A stretch of 64,000 bases of DNA. Origin: Leptolyngbyaceae cyanobacterium (GTDB taxonomy: Bacteria; Cyanobacteriota; Cyanobacteriia; Cyanobacteriales; Aerosakkonemataceae). Shown here in pieces: positions 30,132-42,107 of this stretch. The stretch's first letter is position 1; every line of letters starts with the position of its first letter. Location of the stretch: the NCBI GenBank assembly GCA_036703985.1, contig DATNQN010000021.1, forward strand, positions 1 to 64,000, written 5' to 3'. The notes under the pieces are model-generated. The model searched no databases, had not been told where the DNA came from, and saw only the letters and a list, made by a program, of their open reading frames with translations. A program made the position numbers and the translations under genes.

Positions 30132-30884
30132 ATGAATATCATCGCGCCCTTTAATATTGGGTTTACCAACTTACTGCACTGGGTAATGCAACCCCAGTTA
30201 GCCTTACACATACCAGACGGCTTCTTAAGCCTACCCGTTATTTTCGTCACCTGGGTGCTTGCCATTGGTTTAATTGCCTTATCCCTCTCTCAAGTGAAAG
30301 CAGAATACCAAGAACGGGCAGTTCCCCTGATGGGAGTTTGCGCTGCCTTTATCTTTGCCGCCCAAATGATCAACTTTCCCATACCGGGCGGTACATCCGG
30401 TCACTTGTTAGGTGGAACCTTAGCGGCAATACTACTTGGCCCTTGGGCTGGGTCATTAGTAATGGCAGTAGTATTCATCGTGCAAGCAGTCTTGTTTCAA
30501 GATGGCGGACTCACAGTACTGGGAGCCAACATCACTAATATGGGATTAATCGGCACATTTGTTGGTTACTACTTATACAAAGTGATTAGATATAGCATCG
30601 GTCGCAATAGTTGGCGGGGAATGTCGATCGCTACTGCCGTTGCTGCTTGGACTAGCGTATTCGTGGCAGCTATTTTAACCGCAATTCAACTTGCGGTGTC
30701 CGGTACTGTCCCCTTGGGAATAGCGATTTCGGCAATGGCTTTTTGGCACGTATTAATTGGCATTGGCGAAGCGCTAATAACAGTCATCGCCGTGAGTTTT
30801 GTTTGGAAAAATCGACCGGATTTGTTATTCGATCCGCCTAGAAAAGCAGTTTCCTCCACATCCGGCCATCTTTCACATCGTTAA
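30132..30884 (+). CDS. cbiM: Cobalt/nickel ECF transporter substrate-binding subunit CbiM
   Basis: The S-component of an energy-coupling-factor importer for Co2+ (for cobalamin) or Ni2+. The 250-residue membrane protein carries the family hallmark HIPDGFLSLPVI and a second metal-ligand region MINFPIPGGTSGHLLGG. In the family the free N-terminus and the next His bind metal, yet here HIPDG is preceded by about 25 residues (MNIIAPF... to LAL), so either cleavage or a different start (ATG at 30186) is implied. First gene of cbiM-PDGLE-cbiQ-cbiO. Confidence 0.93.
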   Translation: MNIIAPFNIGFTNLLHWVMQPQLALHIPDGFLSLPVIFVTWVLAIGLIALSLSQVKAEYQERAVPLMGVCAAFIFAAQMINFPIPGGTSGHLLGGTLAAILLGPWAGSLVMAVVFIVQAVLFQDGGLTVLGANITNMGLIGTFVGYYLYKVIRYSIGRNSWRGMSIATAVAAWTSVFVAAILTAIQLAVSGTVPLGIAISAMAFWHVLIGIGEALITVIAVSFVWKNRPDLLFDPPRKAVSSTSGHLSHR

Positions 30885-30904
30885 TTTAGATAGGAATTAA
30901 CATT

Positions 30905-31276
30905 ATGAGTATGGAACTCGATCGTCAACGCAACCGTGCCTTCGTGATTGCTGGTTTAGGCGTGGCATTGCTAATTGCCATTTTTGTTTCTCCCTTCGCC
31001 AGTTCAGATCCGGATGGACTAGATAGAGTTTCTCAAGATTTGGAATTTGAAGATCGCGCGATCGAAGATGCACCAGCCAAAAAATTACCTTTTTATCATG
31101 TATTTGAAGAATACGCATTGAGAGGAGTCCCCGAAGGAGTAGCCACTCCTTTAGCAGGATTGATCGGCACTTTAGCAACCTTTGGTTTAGCTTGGGGTAT
31201 TGGCAAGGTGGCTATTCGCAATTCTGCTTCATCTTCTAGTGATGATGATGTCTCAACCAATTCCGATCCTTCTTAA
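30905..31276 (+). CDS. PDGLE-domain protein (CbiN-like transporter subunit)
   Basis: A 123-residue protein with two membrane spans (about 14-30 and 80-100) around an extracytoplasmic loop containing SSDPDGLDRVSQDLEFED, which matches the PDGLE motif. Such proteins replace CbiN/NikN in cobalt/nickel ECF systems and are found fused or next to CbiM. It begins 20 bases after cbiM and is the second operon gene. Confidence 0.9.
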   Translation: MSMELDRQRNRAFVIAGLGVALLIAIFVSPFASSDPDGLDRVSQDLEFEDRAIEDAPAKKLPFYHVFEEYALRGVPEGVATPLAGLIGTLATFGLAWGIGKVAIRNSASSSSDDDVSTNSDPS

Positions 31277-31342
31277 CATCAGTCATAGAATATTCGATCG
31301 TAAATAATCTTCAGATATACGATCGACTTTTCTAACAGGTGT

Positions 31343-31367
31343 AATCCCAAATCCCAAATCCCAAATC
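31343..31367 (+). repeat. Heptamer tandem repeat (TCCCAAA)
   Basis: Three and a half copies of TCCCAAA just before cbiQ. Confidence 0.7.
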
Positions 31368-31379
31368 TAAAATCGTTAG

Positions 31380-32153
31380 ATGTTACTGCACGTCAATGCT
31401 TTTCAACTAGATGTCGATAGCAAACACGCAACCATTTGGCATTCCATCGCACCTCGTACCCGCATCTTATGTACCCTTTTACTTGTATTTGCGATCGCCC
31501 TCACGCCAAACGGACGTTGGTGGACTTGGGCAATTTACGGACTAGGAGTATCGACGCTAATCTTACTCAGCCGGGTAACTCTGCCAGTACTGCTAAAACG
31601 AATCGCCGTTGAATTTGCTTTTATTGCCGTGGTGCTGTTAGGTACTTTATTCCGTCGGGGGGGTGAGGTAGTCTTTGCTTGGGGTGCGATCGAAATTACC
31701 AGCGAAGGTTTAATCGTATTGGGTAGCGTCACTACCAAAGCTCTATTATCTCTATTAATGCTAAATTTGCTTACTTTAACAACTTCAATTTCTGCTTTAT
31801 TAAATGGTTTAGTAGCCTTAAAAACTCCTCCTTTATTAGTGGCGATTTTGGCATCTATGTATCGATATATTAACGTACTTGTCGGCGAATTTAATGCGAT
31901 GCGTCGCGCTGCTGCCTCTCGCAATTTAACAGGTAATAGCAGTTGGCATCGTCAGGTGATTGGCAACATGATGGGAGTCTTATTTATTCGCACTTACGAA
32001 AGAGGCGATCGCGTTTATCAAGCTATGCTAGCACGAGGTTATCGAGGTGTACCCCCCGTGCTGGACGTTCCTCCCAGTGGAAAAAAAGACTTCATAGCTT
32101 TAACTTTAACTCTTATTTTAACTTTGCTCGGACAAGCAGTTTACTTATTTTAA
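31380..32153 (+). CDS. cbiQ: Cobalt/nickel ECF transporter transmembrane subunit CbiQ
   Basis: The T-component that couples ATP hydrolysis to the substrate subunit. A 257-residue protein with about five or six hydrophobic spans and the characteristic cytoplasmic motif regions MRRAAASRNL and YERGDRVYQAMLARGYRG, the latter containing the A-R-G coupling-helix signature that contacts the ATPase. It lies between the PDGLE gene and cbiO. Confidence 0.94.
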   Translation: MLLHVNAFQLDVDSKHATIWHSIAPRTRILCTLLLVFAIALTPNGRWWTWAIYGLGVSTLILLSRVTLPVLLKRIAVEFAFIAVVLLGTLFRRGGEVVFAWGAIEITSEGLIVLGSVTTKALLSLLMLNLLTLTTSISALLNGLVALKTPPLLVAILASMYRYINVLVGEFNAMRRAAASRNLTGNSSWHRQVIGNMMGVLFIRTYERGDRVYQAMLARGYRGVPPVLDVPPSGKKDFIALTLTLILTLLGQAVYLF

Positions 32154-32158
32154 AATCT

Positions 32159-32200
32159 AGAAGTCAGAATTCAGAACTCAGAATTCAGAATTCAGAATTA
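32159..32200 (+). repeat. Heptamer tandem repeat (AGAATTC family)
   Basis: Six consecutive 7-mers AGAAGTC, AGAATTC, AGAACTC, AGAATTC, AGAATTC, AGAATTA directly after cbiQ; identical units occur inside pyrR. Confidence 0.8.
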
Positions 32201-32222
32201 CCACCTTGTAACTCCCAATTCC

Positions 32223-32250
32223 TGCTCCCTTGCTCCCCTGCTCCCCTGCC
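32223..32250 (+). repeat. Heptamer tandem repeat (TGCTCCC family)
   Basis: TGCTCCC, TTGCTCC-type units ending about ten bases before the cbiO start. Confidence 0.6.
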
Positions 32251-32259
32251 TCTTCTCCC

Positions 32260-33069
32260 ATGCACCATAACCCGATATTTATTGAAAATCTCAGTTATAC
32301 TTACCCCGATGGTACCCAAGCTCTTAGGGGTATTAACTTATCAATTAGAGCCAACGAACGAGTAGCATTAATTGGGGCTAATGGTTCGGGAAAATCAACT
32401 TTGCAATTGCATCTTAACGGTATTTTGATCCCTCAAGAAGGAGAGATAAAAATAGGAGATTGGGTAGTAAATCCGCAAAATTTACGGGAAATTCGCAACT
32501 TTGTGGGTTTAGTATTTCAAAACCCCGATAATCAATTGTTTATGCCTACGGTTTGGGAAGATGTCGCTTTTGGCCCAATGAATCAGGGTTTGCGAGGTAG
32601 GGAACTGACAAACCGAGTCGTGCAAGCAATGACAGCCGTTAGCATCGATCCGGAGCGTTATAGTAAGCGAAATACGGATAATTTGTCTGGAGGAGAGAAG
32701 AAACGGATCGCGATCGCAGGGGTGTTAGCAATGAACCCCCAAGTGTTGGTTTTTGACGAACCTTCCGCTCAATTAGATCCTCGTTCTCGTCGTCAATTAA
32801 TTCAATTGTTGCAAAGTTTACCTTTAACTCAACTGATTGCTACTCACGATCTGGATATGGCACTGGAACTTTGCGATCGCACGGTTGTTCTCAGTCAGGG
32901 TGAAGTCGTCTTTGATGGTAAAACCGAACAAGTAATGAGCGATCGCGATTTCTTAATTCAACATTCTTTAGAGTTACCCTTAAGTTACAGTCGTCCTTAC
33001 TGCGTACTAAAAGATGCACCGACACCAGTTGTATCAGTACCGCATCATCAGGTAAGTCATCATCATTAA
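32260..33069 (+). CDS. cbiO: Cobalt/nickel ECF transporter ATPase CbiO
   Basis: The ATP-binding A-component. It has Walker A GANGSGKST (about residue 38-46), Q-loop LVFQNPDNQLF, signature NLSGGEKKRIAIAG, Walker B VLVFDEPSAQLD and the switch His in ATHDLD. The ATG at 32260 (MHHNPIFIENLSYTY) was chosen over a TTG at 32230 that lies in repeat DNA. The product ends in a histidine-rich tail (VPHHQVSHHH), which could bind metal; that is inference. Confidence 0.94.
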   Translation: MHHNPIFIENLSYTYPDGTQALRGINLSIRANERVALIGANGSGKSTLQLHLNGILIPQEGEIKIGDWVVNPQNLREIRNFVGLVFQNPDNQLFMPTVWEDVAFGPMNQGLRGRELTNRVVQAMTAVSIDPERYSKRNTDNLSGGEKKRIAIAGVLAMNPQVLVFDEPSAQLDPRSRRQLIQLLQSLPLTQLIATHDLDMALELCDRTVVLSQGEVVFDGKTEQVMSDRDFLIQHSLELPLSYSRPYCVLKDAPTPVVSVPHHQVSHHH

Positions 33070-33331
33070 GGAATTTTTTACCACAGATGTCCACAGATGT
33101 AGGCGATCGCCTTGCCGTAGGCTACACAGATGGTGGATTAGATCGCTCTTATCTTAAATTTATTGATATGTTTTAGCGTTAAAAGCTATTTGCTAATTAT
33201 TTAATCAAGGATACAAAAGCTGATAATATGTCACTTTTGACTGATATAGCTTGCTAAATTGCGATCGGTAGTAGATTTTTTTTAGTAAAAATTTGCAATA
33301 ATATCCTAGTCTAATCGAGATCGAAAATGAG

Positions 33332-34333
33332 ATGGGTAATCACCTCCTGCCAGAAAAAGGAAAACCTTGGAGTCGCCGCCAACTATTGCAACTGGGATTG
33401 GCAGGCGGGATCGGTATGGCTGGTGCTGCTGTAGCATTGCAAACATTAACCGCCAAACGAATTCCTCAAGTGAAAGTGCCGCCCCTACCTGGCGATACAC
33501 CTAGTTTTGGCAATAGCATTAGTCCGATGGCGATGCTGCGGGACTTCGACTACGGCACTGTTAAGCGAGAAAATGGCAGGACGATCCGCGAATTTCGGAT
33601 AACGGCAGAAACTTCTACTTTACAACTGAATAGCGCTGTTACTTTTAATACTTGGAATTGTAACGGGCGAGTGCCTGGGCCAACTTTACGGGCGCAAGAA
33701 GGCGATCGCATTCGAGTTCTCTTTTACAACAAAGGCGGACATTCCCACTCACTGCACTTTCACGGCGTTCACCCCTCCGAAATGGATGGAGTAAAACCGA
33801 TCGCGCATGGTAAAGCTACCATTTATGAATTCGATGCCGAACCTTATGGACTCCATCTTTATCACTGCCACGTCGAACCGGTAACTCGCCATATAGGGAA
33901 AGGACTTTACGGGATGTTCGTCATCGATCCTCCCGGTGGGCGTCCTCCAGCCGATGAGATGGTGCTGATCATGTCCGGCTACGATATCAACGACGACGAT
34001 CGCAACGAACTTTATGCTTTTAATGGGTTGCCGCATTATTATATGCACCACCCCATCCCTATTTATAAAGATCAGCTAATTCGGTTGTACGTCCTCAACA
34101 TGATTGAATTCGAGGCGGCGGCGACATTTCATTTACACGCTAACTTCTTTGATGTTTATCGCACCGGGATGACTCTCACTCCTTCTGAGAAAACCGATGT
34201 AATTACGATGGGAGTAGCCGAACGCCACATTCTGGAATTTGCTTTTCGCTATCCCGGTAAGTATATGTTCCATCCCCATCAAGATGCGATCGCCGAACAC
34301 GGCTGCATGGGTGAATTTGAGGTGATTGGCTAA
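33332..34333 (+). CDS. Multicopper oxidase (two-domain, possible ferroxidase)
   Basis: A periplasmic copper oxidase of 333 residues. The N-terminus has a twin-arginine-like signal (SRRQLLQLGLAGGIGMAGAA). Copper-ligand motifs are SLHFHGVHP (about 145), LHLYHCHVEPVTRH (about 180), FHLHANFFDVY (about 267) and MFHPHQDAIAEHGCMG at the C-terminus, with His, Cys and Met ligands. It has only two cupredoxin domains. Downstream are a lipoprotein, a ferritin-like protein and an FTR1 permease, so it probably oxidises Fe2+ for uptake; ferroxidase activity is inferred from context. Confidence 0.9.
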   Translation: MGNHLLPEKGKPWSRRQLLQLGLAGGIGMAGAAVALQTLTAKRIPQVKVPPLPGDTPSFGNSISPMAMLRDFDYGTVKRENGRTIREFRITAETSTLQLNSAVTFNTWNCNGRVPGPTLRAQEGDRIRVLFYNKGGHSHSLHFHGVHPSEMDGVKPIAHGKATIYEFDAEPYGLHLYHCHVEPVTRHIGKGLYGMFVIDPPGGRPPADEMVLIMSGYDINDDDRNELYAFNGLPHYYMHHPIPIYKDQLIRLYVLNMIEFEAAATFHLHANFFDVYRTGMTLTPSEKTDVITMGVAERHILEFAFRYPGKYMFHPHQDAIAEHGCMGEFEVIG

Positions 34334-34616
34334 TCGAAAGGTTAGGACTTAGAGATCGACTAGATTGATTAAAAATATTTGCAATAAGTCTCAGAGCAAG
34401 AGAACGATCGCCAAAATCCCCAATGCCCGCTCCCCAATGCTCGATGCCTAAATTTTCCCGCAAAGTTGACAAATTTTCTCATTAACTAGAAAATGATGAA
34501 TTACACAAAGCTTCAATAAAATACCATTGCAAAAAATCTTTGCAAAAGCAGGCAATTGGGAAATTTCTCGGAGTGCCTGCCAGTCTTACTTACTAAAAAT
34601 TTTGTGGGTTAACCAG

Positions 34617-35639
34617 ATGTCTACTTTTCGTTCCTTGTCTTTTGCTTTTTCGATCGCCAGTTTAGTTACCCTGACTTCTTGTGGCGGCAACCAAAACAAC
34701 GTACAGAGTACCTCAACCCCAGCTGCTTCGCCCAATGCTGGCACTACAGAAACAGTCAGCCACACCACCGGTCATACTGGAAAGCCGAAAATCAATATTA
34801 ATACGGCTATTTTGTCAGAATTAGATAAACTAGAAGCCAAATTAGGCGTACCAGCCCTATCTAACAAAATACAATCAAATCGACCTTACGGAAAAATCGA
34901 GGAATTAGTATCTAAACAAGTCATCACCCAAGAACAGTTTGACCAAGTTAAAGATATGGTGACAATTGAAGATATTGTCCTCACTGGTGAAGCGAAAGAT
35001 GTTGATTACATGACCAAACTGGGGTTGATGAAGGGACATCTTTTAGTGGCAAGAGAATTGCTCGAACAGCAACAACCAAAACAAGCCGAACCTCACATCG
35101 GACACCCGGTTGAAGAAATTTATGTAGATGTAGAAGACCAATTAAACGAGCGAAATGTTAAAGAATTCAAGACAAATTTAATTAGTTTGCAAGATTTAGT
35201 AAAATCAAAACCGAAAGACGCCAAAATTACTACCGAGTTTGGCAATTCCATGCAGGCGGTAGATGCGGCGATCCAAGGAATACCCCAAACACAAAGAAAT
35301 TCACCTGAATTTGTGCTAAAGGTAATAAACGGATTGCTGGATGCAGCGAAGGCCGAGTACGGGGCTGCGATCGCAAATGGCAAAGTAACGGCAGCCATCG
35401 AGTATCAAGACTCTCGCGGCTTCGTCACCTATGCCAACGACCTTTACAAAGGGATCGCCGACCAAATGGTAAAAGAGTATCCCGATGCTCACAAAGCCAT
35501 TGAAACCAATATGGCTGAGTTAACCAAAGCTTGGCCCTCCGTGATTCCTCCCAGCGCACCAGTGCTAACTCCCGATCGAGTGTCCGAGTTGATTAACGCA
35601 ATTGAGCTAAATACTCAAAAAGTAACGATTAAGAGTTAG
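34617..35639 (+). CDS. Lipoprotein with helix-hairpin-helix-like domain, iron-uptake neighbour
   Basis: A 340-residue protein with a lipoprotein signal: LVTLTSC gives the lipobox Cys at about residue 22. A low-complexity Ser/Thr linker follows, then a ComEA-like segment (ININTAILSELDKLEAKLGV, about 60-115), and a helical C-terminal region with conserved histidines (EPHIGHPVEEIYVDVE). The C-terminal part may be an EfeO-like or ferritin-type helical bundle. ATG at 34617 was chosen because earlier in-frame starts give a non-secretory leader. Function inferred only from neighbours. Confidence 0.8.
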   Translation: MSTFRSLSFAFSIASLVTLTSCGGNQNNVQSTSTPAASPNAGTTETVSHTTGHTGKPKININTAILSELDKLEAKLGVPALSNKIQSNRPYGKIEELVSKQVITQEQFDQVKDMVTIEDIVLTGEAKDVDYMTKLGLMKGHLLVARELLEQQQPKQAEPHIGHPVEEIYVDVEDQLNERNVKEFKTNLISLQDLVKSKPKDAKITTEFGNSMQAVDAAIQGIPQTQRNSPEFVLKVINGLLDAAKAEYGAAIANGKVTAAIEYQDSRGFVTYANDLYKGIADQMVKEYPDAHKAIETNMAELTKAWPSVIPPSAPVLTPDRVSELINAIELNTQKVTIKS

Positions 35640-35696
35640 TAATTTGTGGTTAGTAGTCAGTTAAAACTTATCAATAAAAACTATCTACTAACCAAT

Positions 35697-35724
35697 GCCC
35701 CATTCCCCATTCCCCATTCCCATT
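35697..35724 (+). repeat. Heptamer tandem repeat (CCCCATT)
   Basis: Nearly four copies of CCCCATT ending at the start of the ferritin-like gene. Confidence 0.7.
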
Positions 35725-35725
35725 T

Positions 35726-36163
35726 ATGATGAGAGAACTAGACATAAAAAAAGCGACCGGCCTGCTAAATAGCATTATGGAATTTGAATTGGCAGGTGTG
35801 GTGCGTTATACCCATTATTCCCTAATGGTAACTGGCCCCAACCGAATTCCCATTGTAGAATTCTTCAAATTACAGGCAACTGAGTCCTTAACTCATGCTC
35901 AACAAGTAGGAGAAATTCTCACCGGTTTAGAAGGTCATCCCACTTTGCGGATCGCTCCTATGGAAGAGACTTATAAGCATACCGTGCGGGATATTTTAGA
36001 AGAAAGCCTAGCCCATGAAAGAAAAGCTTTAGAGCTTTATAAATCTTTGCTAGATACAGTTGAGGATGCCAGCGTTTATCTAGAAGAATTTGCCCGCACC
36101 ATGATTGGGCAAGAAGAAATGCACAACATAGAAATCAAAAAAATGTTGCGAGATTTCAGTTAA
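35726..36163 (+). CDS. Ferritin-like / bacterioferritin-family protein
   Basis: A 145-residue four-helix diiron protein. The ligands are visible in order: Glu in IMEFELAGVVRYTHY (about 20), E-x-x-H in QATESLTHAQQVGE (about 53-56), Glu in ILEESLAHERKALE (about 90) and E-x-x-H in MIGQEEMHNIEIKK (about 131-134). This pattern fits the ferroxidase centre of bacterioferritin/Dps-like proteins. No haem-binding Met was identified. Placed between the lipoprotein and FTR1 genes, it may store imported iron. Confidence 0.88.
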   Translation: MMRELDIKKATGLLNSIMEFELAGVVRYTHYSLMVTGPNRIPIVEFFKLQATESLTHAQQVGEILTGLEGHPTLRIAPMEETYKHTVRDILEESLAHERKALELYKSLLDTVEDASVYLEEFARTMIGQEEMHNIEIKKMLRDFS

Positions 36164-36230
36164 TTGTCATTAGTCATTAGTCATTTGTGTTTGGTGATTT
36201 ACTATTTTTATTCTCATCAAAAACACTAAC

Positions 36231-36299
36231 GAATAACAAATGACCAATGACTAATGACCAATAACAAATGACCAATAACAAATGACCAATAACAAATGA
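36231..36299 (+). repeat. Heptamer tandem repeat (ACCAATA/ACAAATG family)
   Basis: About ten 7-base units (ATGACCA, ATGACTA, ATAACAA and similar) fill the gap up to the FTR1 gene; the longest such array in the window. Confidence 0.8.
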
Positions 36300-36309
36300 A
36301 AAATTAATT

Positions 36310-37284
36310 ATGGATTTTAGTTCTGCCCTACCAACTTTTTTTATTACCCTGCGAGAAGGCGTAGAAGCAGCTTTAGTCGTAGGAATTGTATTGGCTTTAT
36401 TGAAAAAAGCCAAGCAAAGCCAACTTAACCCTTGGGTTTATGCGGGAATATTAGCTGGGATTGTCGCCAGTGCGCTGGTAGGCGTGTTATTTGGCTGGCT
36501 ATTTCAGTTGGTAGGGTCATTAAATCCCCAGTACACCTCTATAATCGAGCCATTGTTAGAAGCGGCGTTTGGGGTAGCTGCGATCGCCATGCTGAGTTGG
36601 ATGCTGATCTGGATGACCCAACAAGCCAAATCTCTCAAATCACAAATTGAGGGTTCTGTCAATGCTGCGCTCAAACAAGAAACTGTGGCTGGATGGGGGG
36701 TTTTTACCCTAATTTTCATCGCTGTTTTACGAGAAGGCTTTGAGACAGTTTTGTTTATAGTTGCCAAATTTCAACAAGGTTTAATTCCCGCTTTCGGATC
36801 GCTGGGTGGATTAGCAGTAGCCGCTGGGATTGGCGTACTGTTATTTAAATGGGGCGTTAAAATTAACATCCGCCAATTCTTTCAAATTATGGGAGTTTTA
36901 TTACTCCTGATCGTGGCGGGTTTAGTTGTCTCATCTTTAGCAGATTTTGATGAGGCGATGAGAAATTTATCGCAAGTCGATCGCGCTTCTGAATCAATTT
37001 GTTTTTACTACGAAAGATTTTCTAAAAATCCTTCTTGCATTTTAGGGCCAATGGTTTGGAACGCTACCCAAATTTTGCCACAAAACAAGTTTCCCGGCAT
37101 CATACTCCATACCCTTTTCGGTTATCCTGACAAACTTTATCTAGTGCAAACCGTGGGTTATTTAGTGTTTTTGTCTACTATTGGTGGCATATATTTCCGC
37201 AGTTTGAGCGGTCAAACTTCTGCCTCTAGTAAAAATGGTAAGAAAAATTCACCAAATGCCGAAACTTCCATCCGTCCTCAGTAG
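36310..37284 (+). CDS. FTR1 family iron permease
   Basis: A 324-residue membrane permease with about seven spans. The two REGxE iron-binding motifs are REGVEAAL (about residue 15) and REGFETVL (about 140), the hallmark of Ftr1/EfeU. Ftr1 takes iron that a multicopper oxidase has oxidised; a multicopper oxidase gene lies three genes upstream. The C-terminal tail is polar (SKNGKKNSPNAETSIRPQ). Confidence 0.94.
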   Translation: MDFSSALPTFFITLREGVEAALVVGIVLALLKKAKQSQLNPWVYAGILAGIVASALVGVLFGWLFQLVGSLNPQYTSIIEPLLEAAFGVAAIAMLSWMLIWMTQQAKSLKSQIEGSVNAALKQETVAGWGVFTLIFIAVLREGFETVLFIVAKFQQGLIPAFGSLGGLAVAAGIGVLLFKWGVKINIRQFFQIMGVLLLLIVAGLVVSSLADFDEAMRNLSQVDRASESICFYYERFSKNPSCILGPMVWNATQILPQNKFPGIILHTLFGYPDKLYLVQTVGYLVFLSTIGGIYFRSLSGQTSASSKNGKKNSPNAETSIRPQ

Positions 37285-37430: not shown

Positions 37431-37462
37431 AAAACCCGGTTTATTCAAGAAACCGGTTTTTT
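37431..37462. repeat. AAACCCGGTTT hairpin repeat
   Basis: AAAACCCGGTTTATTC and AAGAAACCGGTTTTTT form a hairpin between the convergent FTR1 and CsbD genes and probably act as a bidirectional terminator; member of the family at 23713. Confidence 0.65.
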
Positions 37463-38321: not shown

Positions 38322-41300
38322 ATGAGATTCGATCGGCGATTTTTGCCTTACGTAGTTTCGATTGGCTCGACCGCGATCGCTCTATTGCTGACCCTCTGGC
38401 TAGAACCGATCGTGTCGCCAATTATTAGTCCGCTTTTTTACATCGCCATCATTGTTAGTACCTGGTACGGTGGTTTCCGACCGGGAATGATGACGATCGT
38501 TCTTTCGACGATCGCTATTAGATATTTCTTTATTTTTCCTCCCCATCAATTTCGGATCGAGCCACCGGGAGATGTATTGCGCTTGAGTATTTTCCTATTG
38601 GTGGCGTTAGTAATTAATTTACTCACCAGCCATCTTCTGGAGAGCAAGAAAAAGATCGCCCAACTCAGTCAGCAAGTAGCGCGAGAGAATGCCGAACAAC
38701 TGGCGATGGCGCTGTCTGCGGCTCAAATGGGCATCTGGAACTGGAATACGGTCACCGGAGAAATTAAATGGTCGCCGGAACACGAGCAGCTATTCGGCTT
38801 AGTTCCGGGAACCTTTGATGGCAGATATGAAACATTTGAAGCCTGCGTGCATCCGGACGATCGGGAGGAAGTAACACAAACCATACAACGGGCGCTGCAA
38901 GATCGCCGCCACTACGAGCAAGAATTTCGGGTTGTTTGGGCGGATGGCAGCATTCACTGGCTGGAAGGAAGGGGACGAGCTTTTTATGATTCGGCAGGGC
39001 GACCCGTGCGAATGACCGGCACGATCGTAAATATTGATGATGAGAAGCAGGCAGAAATTCTGCTGCATCAGCAATACCAGCAACAACGAATCGTCATGGA
39101 AATTAGCCAGCACATCCGAAGATCGCTCAATTTAGCTGAAATTCTCCAAACCACGGTAGAAGAAGTCCGCCAGTTTCTTCAGGTCGATCGCGTCATCATC
39201 TTCCAATTTGGGCGTGATTGGAGCGGAACGGTAATCGTAGAATCAGTCGGAGCGGAATGGAGAGCCATTTTATCTACGCAAATCAATGACCCTTGCTTTA
39301 ACGATCGATATGTCGAACCCTATAAGCAAGGTTTAGTAACCGCCATATCAGATATCTACACAGAGGAAATCGATGCTTGTCACTTGGAACTGCTAGCGAA
39401 TTTCCAAGTAAGGGCAAATTTGGTCGTTCCGATCGTTCAAGGCGGGGAACTGTGGGGATTACTGATCGCTCATCACTGTGCGGAACCTCGTTCGTGGCAA
39501 CCTTCAGAAATTGCTCTGATGCGACAGCTAGCAACGCAAGCGGGTATTGCGATTCAGCAGGGCACGCTGGTAGAACGATTACAAATAGAATTAGGGCAAC
39601 GTCGGGAAACGGAAGCTGCTCTGCGAGAAAACGAACGGAAATTTCGCCAACTGGCAGAAAATATTCAAGAAGTTTTCTATCTATATACCGCAGATTACGG
39701 CGAACTTCTCTACATCAATGGGACATACGAAGTGATCTGGCAGCGTTCTGCCAAAACTCTTTATCAAAATCCGCTTTCATTTATCGACGCCATTCACCCG
39801 GACGATCGCGATCGCGTTTCCGATGCTTTCGATCTCCTACTGAACGGACGGGCAGATTTTCAGGAAGAATACCGCATCATCCGTCCCGACGGTTCGATTC
39901 GTTGGATTTACGATCGTTCCTCTTTCGTCTACGACGAAGCGGGTGAACCGTATCGCGTTGCTGGACTGGCGACGGATATTACCGATCGCAAACAAACGGA
40001 GATCTCGCTGCAACAAATGAATGCCCAACTGGAACAAAGGGTAGCGCAACGAACGGCAGAACTAACGCAGGTCAACGCTCTCCTGCAACAAGAACTAATT
40101 CAAAAAGAACAGCTACAACAACAGCTAATTCAAAGAGAAAAACTATTAGATAGTTTCTTTAATGCCGCATCTGCTGCCCATATCGGGCTATCGATTCACG
40201 ATCGAAACTTGCACTATCTCAAGAGCAACCGAGCATTAGCCGATATTAACGGCTGCTCTATCCAAACACTTTTAGAATCAACCCAACCAGAACTGTTATC
40301 GCAGCTGGGTAAAAAATTGATGCCACTGCTTAACAGCGTGATGGAGACGGGACAACCGATCAGCACGGAAGAATTATCTGCTTCTAATGCAAATCAGCCT
40401 GAATTGTCGCGTTACTGGTTGGTTTCTTGCTTTCCGATTTTTGCACAAGCCCAACAGCCGATCGCCGTGGGAACGATTTTACTCGAAATTACCGATCGCA
40501 AACATAGCGAACAAGCCCTTCAACAAGCTAATGCCCGCTTACTAGAGCAGACAAATAAGTTGGAACTAATCAATCAAGAATTGCAAACTACTCTAGAAAC
40601 ACTGCAAATTTCCGAGGAAGAACTGAGGAACAGCCACGAACAATTAGAAACGATTGCATTAGCGGCGCAATTGGAACAACAGCGATATCAAGACCTGTTT
40701 AACTTTGCCCCAGATGGTTATCTAGTCACGGATTCAAACGGCGTGATTCAAGAAGCCAATCAAGCCGCAGGTATGCTATTAGGGGTCAATCCCCCTGCAT
40801 TAGTTCGCAAGGCATTATCTATCTACATTGCCAAGCAGGATCGTTCTCTATTTCGGACGCATTTAAACCAATGTTTGAGTCAGTTAACCTACGAGTTAAC
40901 CATTCAACCGCACGGCGGCAATTCATTCCCCGCTACGGTCACCCTTTCGACGATCCGCGATGGAGAGGATCGACCGATCGGGATTCGGTGGCTGATTAAA
41001 GATATGACCGAGCGCAAACAGGCACAAGCAAAGCTGCAAGAAGCGGAGAGACGCTGGCGATTTTTGCTGGAAAACGTGCAATTAGCAGTAGTCGGACTCG
41101 ATCTCAACGGTACTCTCAATTACGTTAATCCTTTCTGCTTGCAAATTACCGGTTACGCCGAATCGGAAGTATTGGGTCTGAACTGGTTTGAAACTTTTAT
41201 ATCCCCTGCCGATCGCCCACAAATTCAAAAGATATTTTCCGAAATATTAACATCGAACGCTCATACTTACTATCAGAATTTTATCGTTACCAAATCGGGA

Positions 41301-42107
41301 GAACAAAGGTTTATTGCTTGGAACAATACGCTATTGAGAGATTTAGCCGGAAATGCGATCGGCACGATCGGTATTGGCGAAGACATTACCGAACGACGCA
41401 AAATCGAGCAGATGAAAAATGAGTTTCTTGGCATTGTCAGCCACGAACTCCGCACCCCGCTGACTGCCATTCGAGCATCTTTGGGATTGCTGCAATCGGG
41501 AATGTACGACAACAAGCCAGAGAAGGTCAAACGCTTGATCGAGATCGCCGCCATCGATAGCGAACGCTTAGTGCGCTTAGTCAACGATATTCTCGATTTA
41601 GAACGCTTAGAGTCGGGTCGAGCGATCTTAGAGAAAACTACTTGCAAAGCCGCTGATTTGATGCAGCAAGCTGTAAATGCAGTGCAAGGGATCGCTTTGC
41701 CGCAAAATATCACTTTATCGATCCATCCTACCGATGTGGAAGTTTGGGCGGCGTCGGATGCGATCGTGCAAGTACTCACCAATCTGCTGACTAATGGGAT
41801 TAAATTTTCCCCTCCCGATACTACTATTACTTTGCAAGCTCGACGACAAAACGGTCTGGTATTGTTCCAAGTTAGCGATCGGGGTAGGGGTATTCCCGCC
41901 GATAAATTAGAAGCGATTTTCGGCAGATTTCAACAAGTGGATGCCTCGGATTCTCGCGATAAAGGAGGAACTGGCTTGGGACTGGCCATTTGTCGCAGTA
42001 TTATCGATCGACATGGCGGACGCATCTGGGCTGAAAGTACTCTGGGTATCGGCAGTACGTTTAATTTCACGTTGCCACTGCCATCAAAGCAAAATAATGA
42101 GCTTTAA
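38322..42107 (+). CDS. Multi-PAS/GAF sensor histidine kinase
   Basis: A 1261-residue membrane sensor kinase. The N-terminus has three or four membrane segments like the KdpD/DUF4118 domain (about 1-110). Then a PAS/PAC domain (130-250), a GAF domain (265-410) without an obvious bilin-binding Cys, and further PAS/PAC domains (about 425-555, 610-740, 785-895 and 910-1030) separated by coiled coils. HisKA has IVSHELRTPLTAIRASLG (about 1040) and HATPase_c has DRGRGIPADK and GGTGLGLAI. There is no fused receiver; a lone receiver gene follows 140 bases on and is the likely partner. Confidence 0.93.
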   Translation: MRFDRRFLPYVVSIGSTAIALLLTLWLEPIVSPIISPLFYIAIIVSTWYGGFRPGMMTIVLSTIAIRYFFIFPPHQFRIEPPGDVLRLSIFLLVALVINLLTSHLLESKKKIAQLSQQVARENAEQLAMALSAAQMGIWNWNTVTGEIKWSPEHEQLFGLVPGTFDGRYETFEACVHPDDREEVTQTIQRALQDRRHYEQEFRVVWADGSIHWLEGRGRAFYDSAGRPVRMTGTIVNIDDEKQAEILLHQQYQQQRIVMEISQHIRRSLNLAEILQTTVEEVRQFLQVDRVIIFQFGRDWSGTVIVESVGAEWRAILSTQINDPCFNDRYVEPYKQGLVTAISDIYTEEIDACHLELLANFQVRANLVVPIVQGGELWGLLIAHHCAEPRSWQPSEIALMRQLATQAGIAIQQGTLVERLQIELGQRRETEAALRENERKFRQLAENIQEVFYLYTADYGELLYINGTYEVIWQRSAKTLYQNPLSFIDAIHPDDRDRVSDAFDLLLNGRADFQEEYRIIRPDGSIRWIYDRSSFVYDEAGEPYRVAGLATDITDRKQTEISLQQMNAQLEQRVAQRTAELTQVNALLQQELIQKEQLQQQLIQREKLLDSFFNAASAAHIGLSIHDRNLHYLKSNRALADINGCSIQTLLESTQPELLSQLGKKLMPLLNSVMETGQPISTEELSASNANQPELSRYWLVSCFPIFAQAQQPIAVGTILLEITDRKHSEQALQQANARLLEQTNKLELINQELQTTLETLQISEEELRNSHEQLETIALAAQLEQQRYQDLFNFAPDGYLVTDSNGVIQEANQAAGMLLGVNPPALVRKALSIYIAKQDRSLFRTHLNQCLSQLTYELTIQPHGGNSFPATVTLSTIRDGEDRPIGIRWLIKDMTERKQAQAKLQEAERRWRFLLENVQLAVVGLDLNGTLNYVNPFCLQITGYAESEVLGLNWFETFISPADRPQIQKIFSEILTSNAHTYYQNFIVTKSGEQRFIAWNNTLLRDLAGNAIGTIGIGEDITERRKIEQMKNEFLGIVSHELRTPLTAIRASLGLLQSGMYDNKPEKVKRLIEIAAIDSERLVRLVNDILDLERLESGRAILEKTTCKAADLMQQAVNAVQGIALPQNITLSIHPTDVEVWAASDAIVQVLTNLLTNGIKFSPPDTTITLQARRQNGLVLFQVSDRGRGIPADKLEAIFGRFQQVDASDSRDKGGTGLGLAICRSIIDRHGGRIWAESTLGIGSTFNFTLPLPSKQNNEL

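Follow-up and report, generated by a model that had tools for sequence, protein, structure and literature searches.

The four-gene cluster

The stretch of DNA analysed here (the window; 64,000 nt, positions 1–64,000 of contig DATNQN010000021.1 from a Leptolyngbyaceae cyanobacterium) carries at 33,332–37,284 four consecutive plus-strand genes, which the original prediction described as an iron-uptake module. The open reading frames (ORFs) agree with this arrangement, and we confirmed that all four are genuine genes, rightly identified as encoding a multicopper oxidase (MCO), a lipoprotein (here LIP), a ferritin-like protein (FER) and an FTR1 permease:

33332–34333, plus strand: MCO, two-domain multicopper oxidase with a Tat-type signal, likely a ferroxidase (ORFs, Pfam, Protein Data Bank (PDB) matches, conserved residues)
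34617–35639, plus strand: LIP, lipoprotein with signal peptide, lipobox C22, HHH domain and C-terminal helical domain (Pfam, translation, AlphaFold2 model, alignments)
35726–36163, plus strand: FER, ferritin-like diiron protein of 145 aa (ORF, Pfam, conserved residues)
36310–37284, plus strand: FTR1/cFTR1-type iron permease with both REGxE motifs (Pfam, conserved residues, tree)

The best start codon of LIP is the ATG at 34617, and the mechanically called ORF opens at a TTG at 34527.

The predicted two-domain oxidase with a Tat-like signal is evident from the sequence of MCO (333 aa), which matches Cu-oxidase_3 (94–201) and Cu-oxidase_2 (best stretch 223–331) in Pfam and shows SRRQLL at its translated N-terminus. 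Residue conservation was assessed column by column in alignments of relatives, at a threshold of 98% identity and excluding rows that contain a stop; individual residues of MCO and FER are assigned to ligand roles by general knowledge of these families. The type-1 ligands of domain 1 (H139/C179/H187) and the trinuclear-site histidines (142, 144, 178, 180, 267, 269, 314 and 316) are both conserved at this level in 80 rows, giving the complete ligand sets of a two-domain MCO. Because the four HxH motifs are conserved and the score lies far below the cut-off for copper nitrite reductases (TIGR02376, 81.5 vs 296.3 bits), MCO should carry a trinuclear copper site; Leu192 presumably stands where nitrite reductases have Met. 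The nearest structures are two-domain MCOs, PDB 3gdc (E 7e-89) and 7rab (E 2e-79).

FER belongs to the diiron superfamily, as predicted: it matches Ferritin at 72.6 bits (cut-off 24.5), and E21, E53, H57, E98, E130 and H133 are at least 98% conserved in 80 rows. Its location is probably the cytosol, because no signal peptide was seen by eye. The permease matches FTR1 (PF03239) at 193 bits (cut-off 25.3) and holds both expected motifs: across 79 rows, R15-E16-E19 and R141-E142-E145 are each conserved to 98% or more. It falls below the EfeU equivalog cut-offs (NF041756, 188 vs 255 bits; TIGR00145, 236 vs 303.8 bits) and is the sole FTR1 match in the 7.68-Mb assembly. The gap between the FER and FTR1 genes (36170–36300) appears by eye to be packed with short direct repeats, with units like AACAAATGACCAAT.

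Gene order across cyanobacteria

The gene-order comparison proposed with the original prediction gave a positive answer: the order is conserved. We searched 244 cyanobacterial genomes (thresholds E 0.001 for LIP, 1e-40 for MCO, 1e-10 for FER and 0.001 for FTR1), with adjacency defined as within 5 kb, on the same strand and in the stated order. A second survey covered the 80 most LIP-like loci, the best 80 of 356 confirmed, in which missing genes are not told apart from contig ends. The genomes of both surveys are related, and the counts, uncorrected for relatedness, are not independent events. LIP was matched in 48 genomes, MCO in 45, FER in 67 and FTR1 in 79. All four genes occur in the order MCO-LIP-FER-FTR1 in 21 of the 244 genomes and at 64 of the 80 loci; the other loci read LIP-FER-FTR1 (10), LIP-FTR1 (3) or one of three further orders (one each).

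MCO precedes LIP in 40 of the 43 genomes holding both, and FER precedes FTR1 in 46 of 52. The remaining pairings are looser (LIP>FTR1 31/43, LIP>FER 25/35, MCO>FTR1 27/41). Fourteen genomes carry FER-FTR1 without MCO and LIP, and nine carry MCO-LIP with an unlinked FTR1. Since adjacency is highest within these two pairs and each also occurs apart, the cluster is two separable pairs joined, MCO-LIP and FER-FTR1, rather than the single unit first proposed. The MCO-LIP adjacency is far beyond the chance expected of unordered genes, and MCO and LIP appear to be the core of the cluster, which many filamentous cyanobacteria possess.

A lipoprotein of no known family

LIP had been described as a lipoprotein with a helix-hairpin-helix look, and both features are present: the lipobox Cys22 is visible in the translation, and an HHH domain at about 57–115 matches HHH_3, borderline at 27.3 bits against a cut-off of 27.0. 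In the model this region superposes on the ComEA-related structure 2duy (Z 8.4, rmsd 2.7, 65 residues aligned). It is followed by a C-terminal domain of about 220 residues (about 120–340), to which the match is restricted in distant genomes, in some of them behind a Gly/Glu-rich linker. AlphaFold2 modelled the whole protein with a pLDDT of 82.7 and the isolated domain, at high confidence, with a pLDDT of 94.0 and a pTM of 0.91, its helices fitting two four-helix bundles. Identical in 81 of 81 close rows are H141, H160, H163, E166, E167 and Y169 in the first half, and E247, Y248, E262, Y263, Q264, D265 and R267 in the second. The three histidines are retained in 15 of 17 chosen distant rows, all 15 from genomes with an MCO match, among which E166 is replaced by Asp in three and R267 by Met in one. 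The histidine set is lost in the two others (L051 and L054), whose genomes have no MCO match at E 1e-40. Counted from the loop, H141 and H163 are roughly level with each other in the first hairpin, which makes a metal site in bundle 1 plausible.

Searching solved structures by sequence with LIP returned only two matches, both with E above 0.7 and one of them ComEA-related. Profile matches of the C-terminal domain to designed helical proteins and to a lectin-domain chain were judged a composition effect. A proposed equivalence of this domain with the periplasmic N-terminal domain of FTR1s from bacteria such as Deinococcus was dropped at an hhalign probability of 0.1%. PHROGs gave one weak match of unknown function, and a Rfam scan near the cluster gave none. 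The available text of the literature found, including PMC3143127, PMC11966278, PMC11221513, PMC7676907, PMC9174327, PMC4005646 and PMC3610870, describes neither the gene cluster nor LIP. Judged by these searches, LIP is a lipoprotein of no known family, for which we found no description in the literature.

The original prediction also called LIP EfeO-like, an idea that finds weak support. LIP could be a true, highly diverged M75/EfeO protein, with MCO replacing the cupredoxin domain of EfeO or EfeB. Foldseek, run with the isolated domain model, ranks E. coli EfeO (probability 0.99), P. syringae EfeM (0.87) and Algp7 (0.85) first, the double four-helix-bundle layout is reported for imelysin-like proteins and EfeM in the available text of PMC3143127 and PMC9174327, and three of 17 LIP family members weakly match Peptidase_M75 (best E 7e-4). 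However, the Foldseek E-values are 0.065–0.14 (EfeO 0.065), none reaching 0.001, and EfeO aligns with a query TM of only 0.45–0.46 and an rmsd of 9.5–10. The VIA-align list for the domain is filled by unrelated bundles; EfeO is absent among the 50 matches listed there, which proves nothing. Comparison by hhalign with cyanobacterial M75 proteins gave probabilities of 0.8% and 0.4%, LIP itself has no M75 match in Pfam, and inspection by eye showed no clear equivalent of the HxxE and GEEDRY motifs in it. This genome yielded no M75/EfeO match, and two other genomes (G125 and G167) hold a separate M75-FTR1 pair with a very distant FTR1. We hold a divergent EfeUO system to be possible but rather unlikely. 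Because the Foldseek matches are not significant, unrelated bundles fill the VIA-align list and the profile comparison fails, we do not file LIP as an M75 member; the models suggest that it is like EfeO in layout and probably in role.

The permease tree

On a tree of 67 FTR1s, the 23 that are LIP-linked group apart from most others. The LIP-linked rows require four label changes, compared with a shuffled mean of 13.0 (0 of 500 shuffles as low), and fall into two groups. Separate from both is a group of 34, made up of 13 of the 17 FER-only and 21 of the 27 other FTR1s. Ten genomes carry a LIP-linked FTR1 together with a second FTR1 not linked to M75; the second copy falls in the group of 34 in nine of them and in the LIP-linked part in one (G030). 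The M75-linked FTR1s (G125 and G167) are set off by a very long branch. The window FTR1 lies among the LIP-linked rows, a placement that is weakly supported (81/56).

Neighbours of LIP without an adjacent FTR1

We read 14 loci at which LIP is not beside FTR1 (L040, L041 and L043–L054). Curated models identify the iron-uptake porin NF033921 at four of them (L040, L043, L052 and L053), a YbiX-type Fe2+-dependent dioxygenase at L045 and L048, and a bacterioferritin at L048. Searching with these proteins by tblastn showed one or more of them close by at L046, L047 and L049 as well, so that a porin, dioxygenase or bacterioferritin is nearby at 9 of the 14 loci, equal to 9 of the 11 with MCO beside LIP. 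At L044 a porin match lies 4.7 kb away, and none of these iron genes was seen near LIP at L041 (a 3-kb contig), L050, L051 and L054. Solute-binding proteins of the SBP_bac_6/8 type at L040 and L043 have a FutA-like look that no model confirmed. Three further loci (L060, L062 and L065) carry a porin match between LIP and FER.

The survey beyond cyanobacteria covered plasmids and yielded LIP relatives in three of 72,556 plasmid records. The relative in Deinococcus taeanensis (hhalign 98.7%) directly precedes an FTR1, the one in Roseovarius indicus (99.0%) precedes an Fe2+-dependent dioxygenase, and the one in Indioceanicola profundi (100%) stands beside a MauG-type di-haem peroxidase fused to a cupredoxin-like domain (L140:8652–10001). 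By eye, the Deinococcus relative (L141:8019–9020) seems to contain an internal duplication, with a second half similar to the N-terminal part of the FTR1 next to it; hhalign of the cyanobacterial LIP profile against that FTR1 failed to match.

Regulatory sites and surroundings

Three further features of the window may bear on expression:

33282–33298, plus strand: degenerate copy (12/17) of a palindrome found in relatives, candidate operator (consensus match)
34466–34494, plus strand: promoter-like site before the LIP gene (consensus match only, in a region no richer in such sites than its shuffles)
37436–37456, plus strand: terminator-like hairpin with T tail after FTR1 (terminator search)

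On the plus strand, the gaps between the four genes contain no terminator-like site. The 17-bp palindrome TTGCAAATNATTTGCAA is matched at 13 or more of its 17 positions in 55 of 63 MCO upstream regions and in 0 of 315 shuffles, mostly, among those 55, some 49 bp ahead of the MCO start, and occurs before LIP in 2 of 78, FER in 0 of 76 and FTR1 in 0 of 79 cases. It is rare genome-wide, with 0–3 sites per genome in 11 genomes at one mismatch or fewer and none at that level in the genome of the window. By eye, its sites away from the MCO promoter have no common theme. A TTGACA/T-type promoter pattern is present in 49 of the 63 MCO upstream regions, mostly about 40 bp above the palindrome. The palindrome was seen upstream of MCO in L061–L139, just downstream of this putative promoter. 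We consider it a candidate operator of an unknown metal regulator.

The Fur-box search suggested with the original prediction gave a mixed result, with a modest enrichment in relatives and a weak signal in the window. The 7-1-7 and 19-bp Fur boxes used here follow the usual patterns, and the FurA consensus is a published one. A 7-1-7 box scoring at least 12 of 15 precedes MCO in 24 of 64 cases (shuffles 5/320) and LIP in 16 of 79 (9/395); a 19-bp box reaching 14 precedes LIP in 33 of 79 (12/395). The FurA consensus at 14 or more of 19 was found before MCO in 20 of 63 cases (38/315) and before LIP in 28 of 78 (33/390). Part of the signal before MCO overlaps the TTGACA element. Fur-type boxes are thus more frequent before MCO and LIP in relatives than in shuffles, and iron control is plausible.

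Immediately upstream of the cluster on the same strand (30132–33069) lies a Co/Ni-type ECF transporter operon, CbiM-CbiQ-CbiO. The same operon is partly present (at least 70% identity) upstream of LIP at 7 of the 80 loci, and more distant CbiM/CbiO matches occur near LIP at many of the others. Judged by eye, a large sensor histidine kinase that seems to contain PAS repeats is encoded after the cluster on the same strand (38322–42107). A second ferritin-like gene, 42% identical, follows FTR1 in G174 (L057:5332–5793), giving FER-FTR1-FER.

Probable iron uptake and its alternatives

In our reading, to which we give a probability of roughly 0.6, the cluster is an iron-uptake module that depends on an oxidase, a kind of system known in general terms; substrate, direction and hand-over are inferred. 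The conserved gene order and the iron-related neighbours in other genomes give good support to this part of the original prediction. Several observations weigh against it. Three genomes (G116, G175 and G181) hold MCO and LIP without any FTR1 match, and two hold MCO without LIP (G193, and G123, a fragment). The FER-only FTR1s of G019 and G174 lie inside the LIP-linked part of the tree with no LIP match in either genome, and the tree association may be nearly one event, so that the adjacency counts are not independent. The porin and dioxygenase neighbour counts are raw, without a background rate. The window's own 7-1-7 scores are 9 and 10 of 15, and its FurA consensus reaches a weak 14 of 19 before LIP, a score equalled or exceeded in 10 of 300 shuffles, and likewise before FER, where 7 of 300 do so, with no signal before MCO or FTR1. 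Finally, MCO relatives were found in 128 plasmid records at E 1e-40, and in each of the seven regions read MCO is followed at once by a gene for a ZIP-type or "metal transporter" protein (in two tested, the Zip match was just under the cut-off); an MntR-type or metal-dependent regulator adjoins in four of the seven, and copper (resistance) genes lie near some of these relatives. These MCO/ZIP-type pairs (L162, L163 and L164–L168) come from Actinomycetota, Alphaproteobacteria, Deinococcota and cyanobacteria.

Such neighbourhoods support metal transport generally and leave the metal open, and since MCO relatives elsewhere adjoin ZIP-type transporters, some with Mn-type regulators, iron as the substrate of MCO remains something we infer. 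MCO might instead oxidise Mn(II) or Cu(I), with LIP handling that metal and the proximity of FTR1 being secondary; the Co/Ni-type operon upstream in the window and, by eye from ORFs, a Mn/Zn-type ABC transporter near the MCO-LIP locus L049 would fit this as well. However, the seven plasmid relatives are only 42–49% identical to MCO and their plasmids yielded no LIP relative, whereas LIP-containing loci neighbour FTR1, ferritin, iron-uptake porin, YbiX-type dioxygenase and bacterioferritin genes. We consider a metal other than iron an improbable substrate.

A different use of iron also deserves attention. At plentiful iron, MCO could clear reactive Fe(II) from the periplasm, with FTR1 importing the Fe(III) and ferritin storing it, a detoxification route consistent with the tight bond of FER to FTR1, the lack of a clear Fur box in the window and the bacterioferritin-like gene pair near MCO-LIP at L047–L049. 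The porins and YbiX-type dioxygenases near LIP loci argue against this, as such proteins are usually tied to scavenging. Moreover, the available text of PMC11221513 lists the Synechocystis FTR1 among the iron-deficiency adaptation genes bound by IutR1. We therefore hold detoxification and storage to be a rather unlikely main purpose.

Comparison with known systems

The pairing of a multicopper oxidase with an FTR1 carrying two REGxE motifs matches the Fet3/Ftr1 type in gene content and makes yeast Fet3p/Ftr1p a probable functional analogue. Unlike the three-domain Fet3-type oxidases, MCO has only two cupredoxin domains and a Tat-type signal, and the cluster adds a lipoprotein and a ferritin gene before FTR1. 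With EfeUOB/EfeUO(M) it shares an FTR1-family permease and an all-helical partner in the periplasm whose model shows two four-helix bundles, but LIP has an HHH domain in place of a cupredoxin domain and no M75 match, and the MCO is separate. None of the four cluster genes, the only ones searched for it, matches the DyP peroxidase (EfeB). The two-domain MCOs 3gdc and 7rab/7rac belong to the same family as MCO over nearly the whole mature chain. The relative in Arthrobacter sp. FB24, from which we take 3gdc to originate, differs in being followed by a ZIP transporter, with a metal-dependent regulator on the other side, instead of LIP and FTR1.

Slr0964 (cFTR1) of Synechocystis, presumably of the same cyanobacterial permease family as the cluster FTR1, was reportedly the subject of a 2016 study by Xu et al. 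The cluster FTR1 differs from it in being linked to MCO, LIP and FER, and it stands among the LIP-linked rows of a tree that does not include Slr0964. In the available text of PMC7676907 and PMC11221513, which cite that work, cFTR1 (Slr0964) is treated. FtrABCD likewise combines a permease of the FTR1 family with a copper protein in the periplasm, for which a role as ferrous oxidase is proposed (PMC11966278). Its FtrB is a single-domain cupredoxin, and the available text of that paper does not describe a two-domain MCO or a LIP.

Proposed mechanism and implications

In the iron-uptake mechanism that we propose, the Tat-exported MCO would oxidise periplasmic Fe(II), and membrane-anchored LIP could bind the resulting Fe(III) through the His/Glu cluster of its first bundle and Glu/Asp residues of the second. 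LIP would then present the iron to a permease, the neighbouring FTR1 here and maybe another permease elsewhere. FTR1 would import the Fe(III), and cytosolic FER may re-oxidise and store it.

A broader proposal, which we put forward tentatively and at somewhat less than even odds, is that LIP founds a new family of periplasmic ferric-iron chaperones. Together with MCO it would form a portable core coupled to varied porins and permeases, mostly FTR1 and possibly FutABC-type ABC transporters, serving as a bacterial counterpart of Fet3 that uses a carrier rather than direct channelling, alongside a dedicated, co-evolved FTR1 subfamily.

The available text of PMC7676907 names no oxidase, and the conserved copper oxidase encoded beside a distinct FTR1 group offers a concrete oxidase candidate, with LIP as a conserved component of the cluster. 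If the iron-uptake reading is true, copper supply would be tied to iron uptake in many filamentous cyanobacteria.

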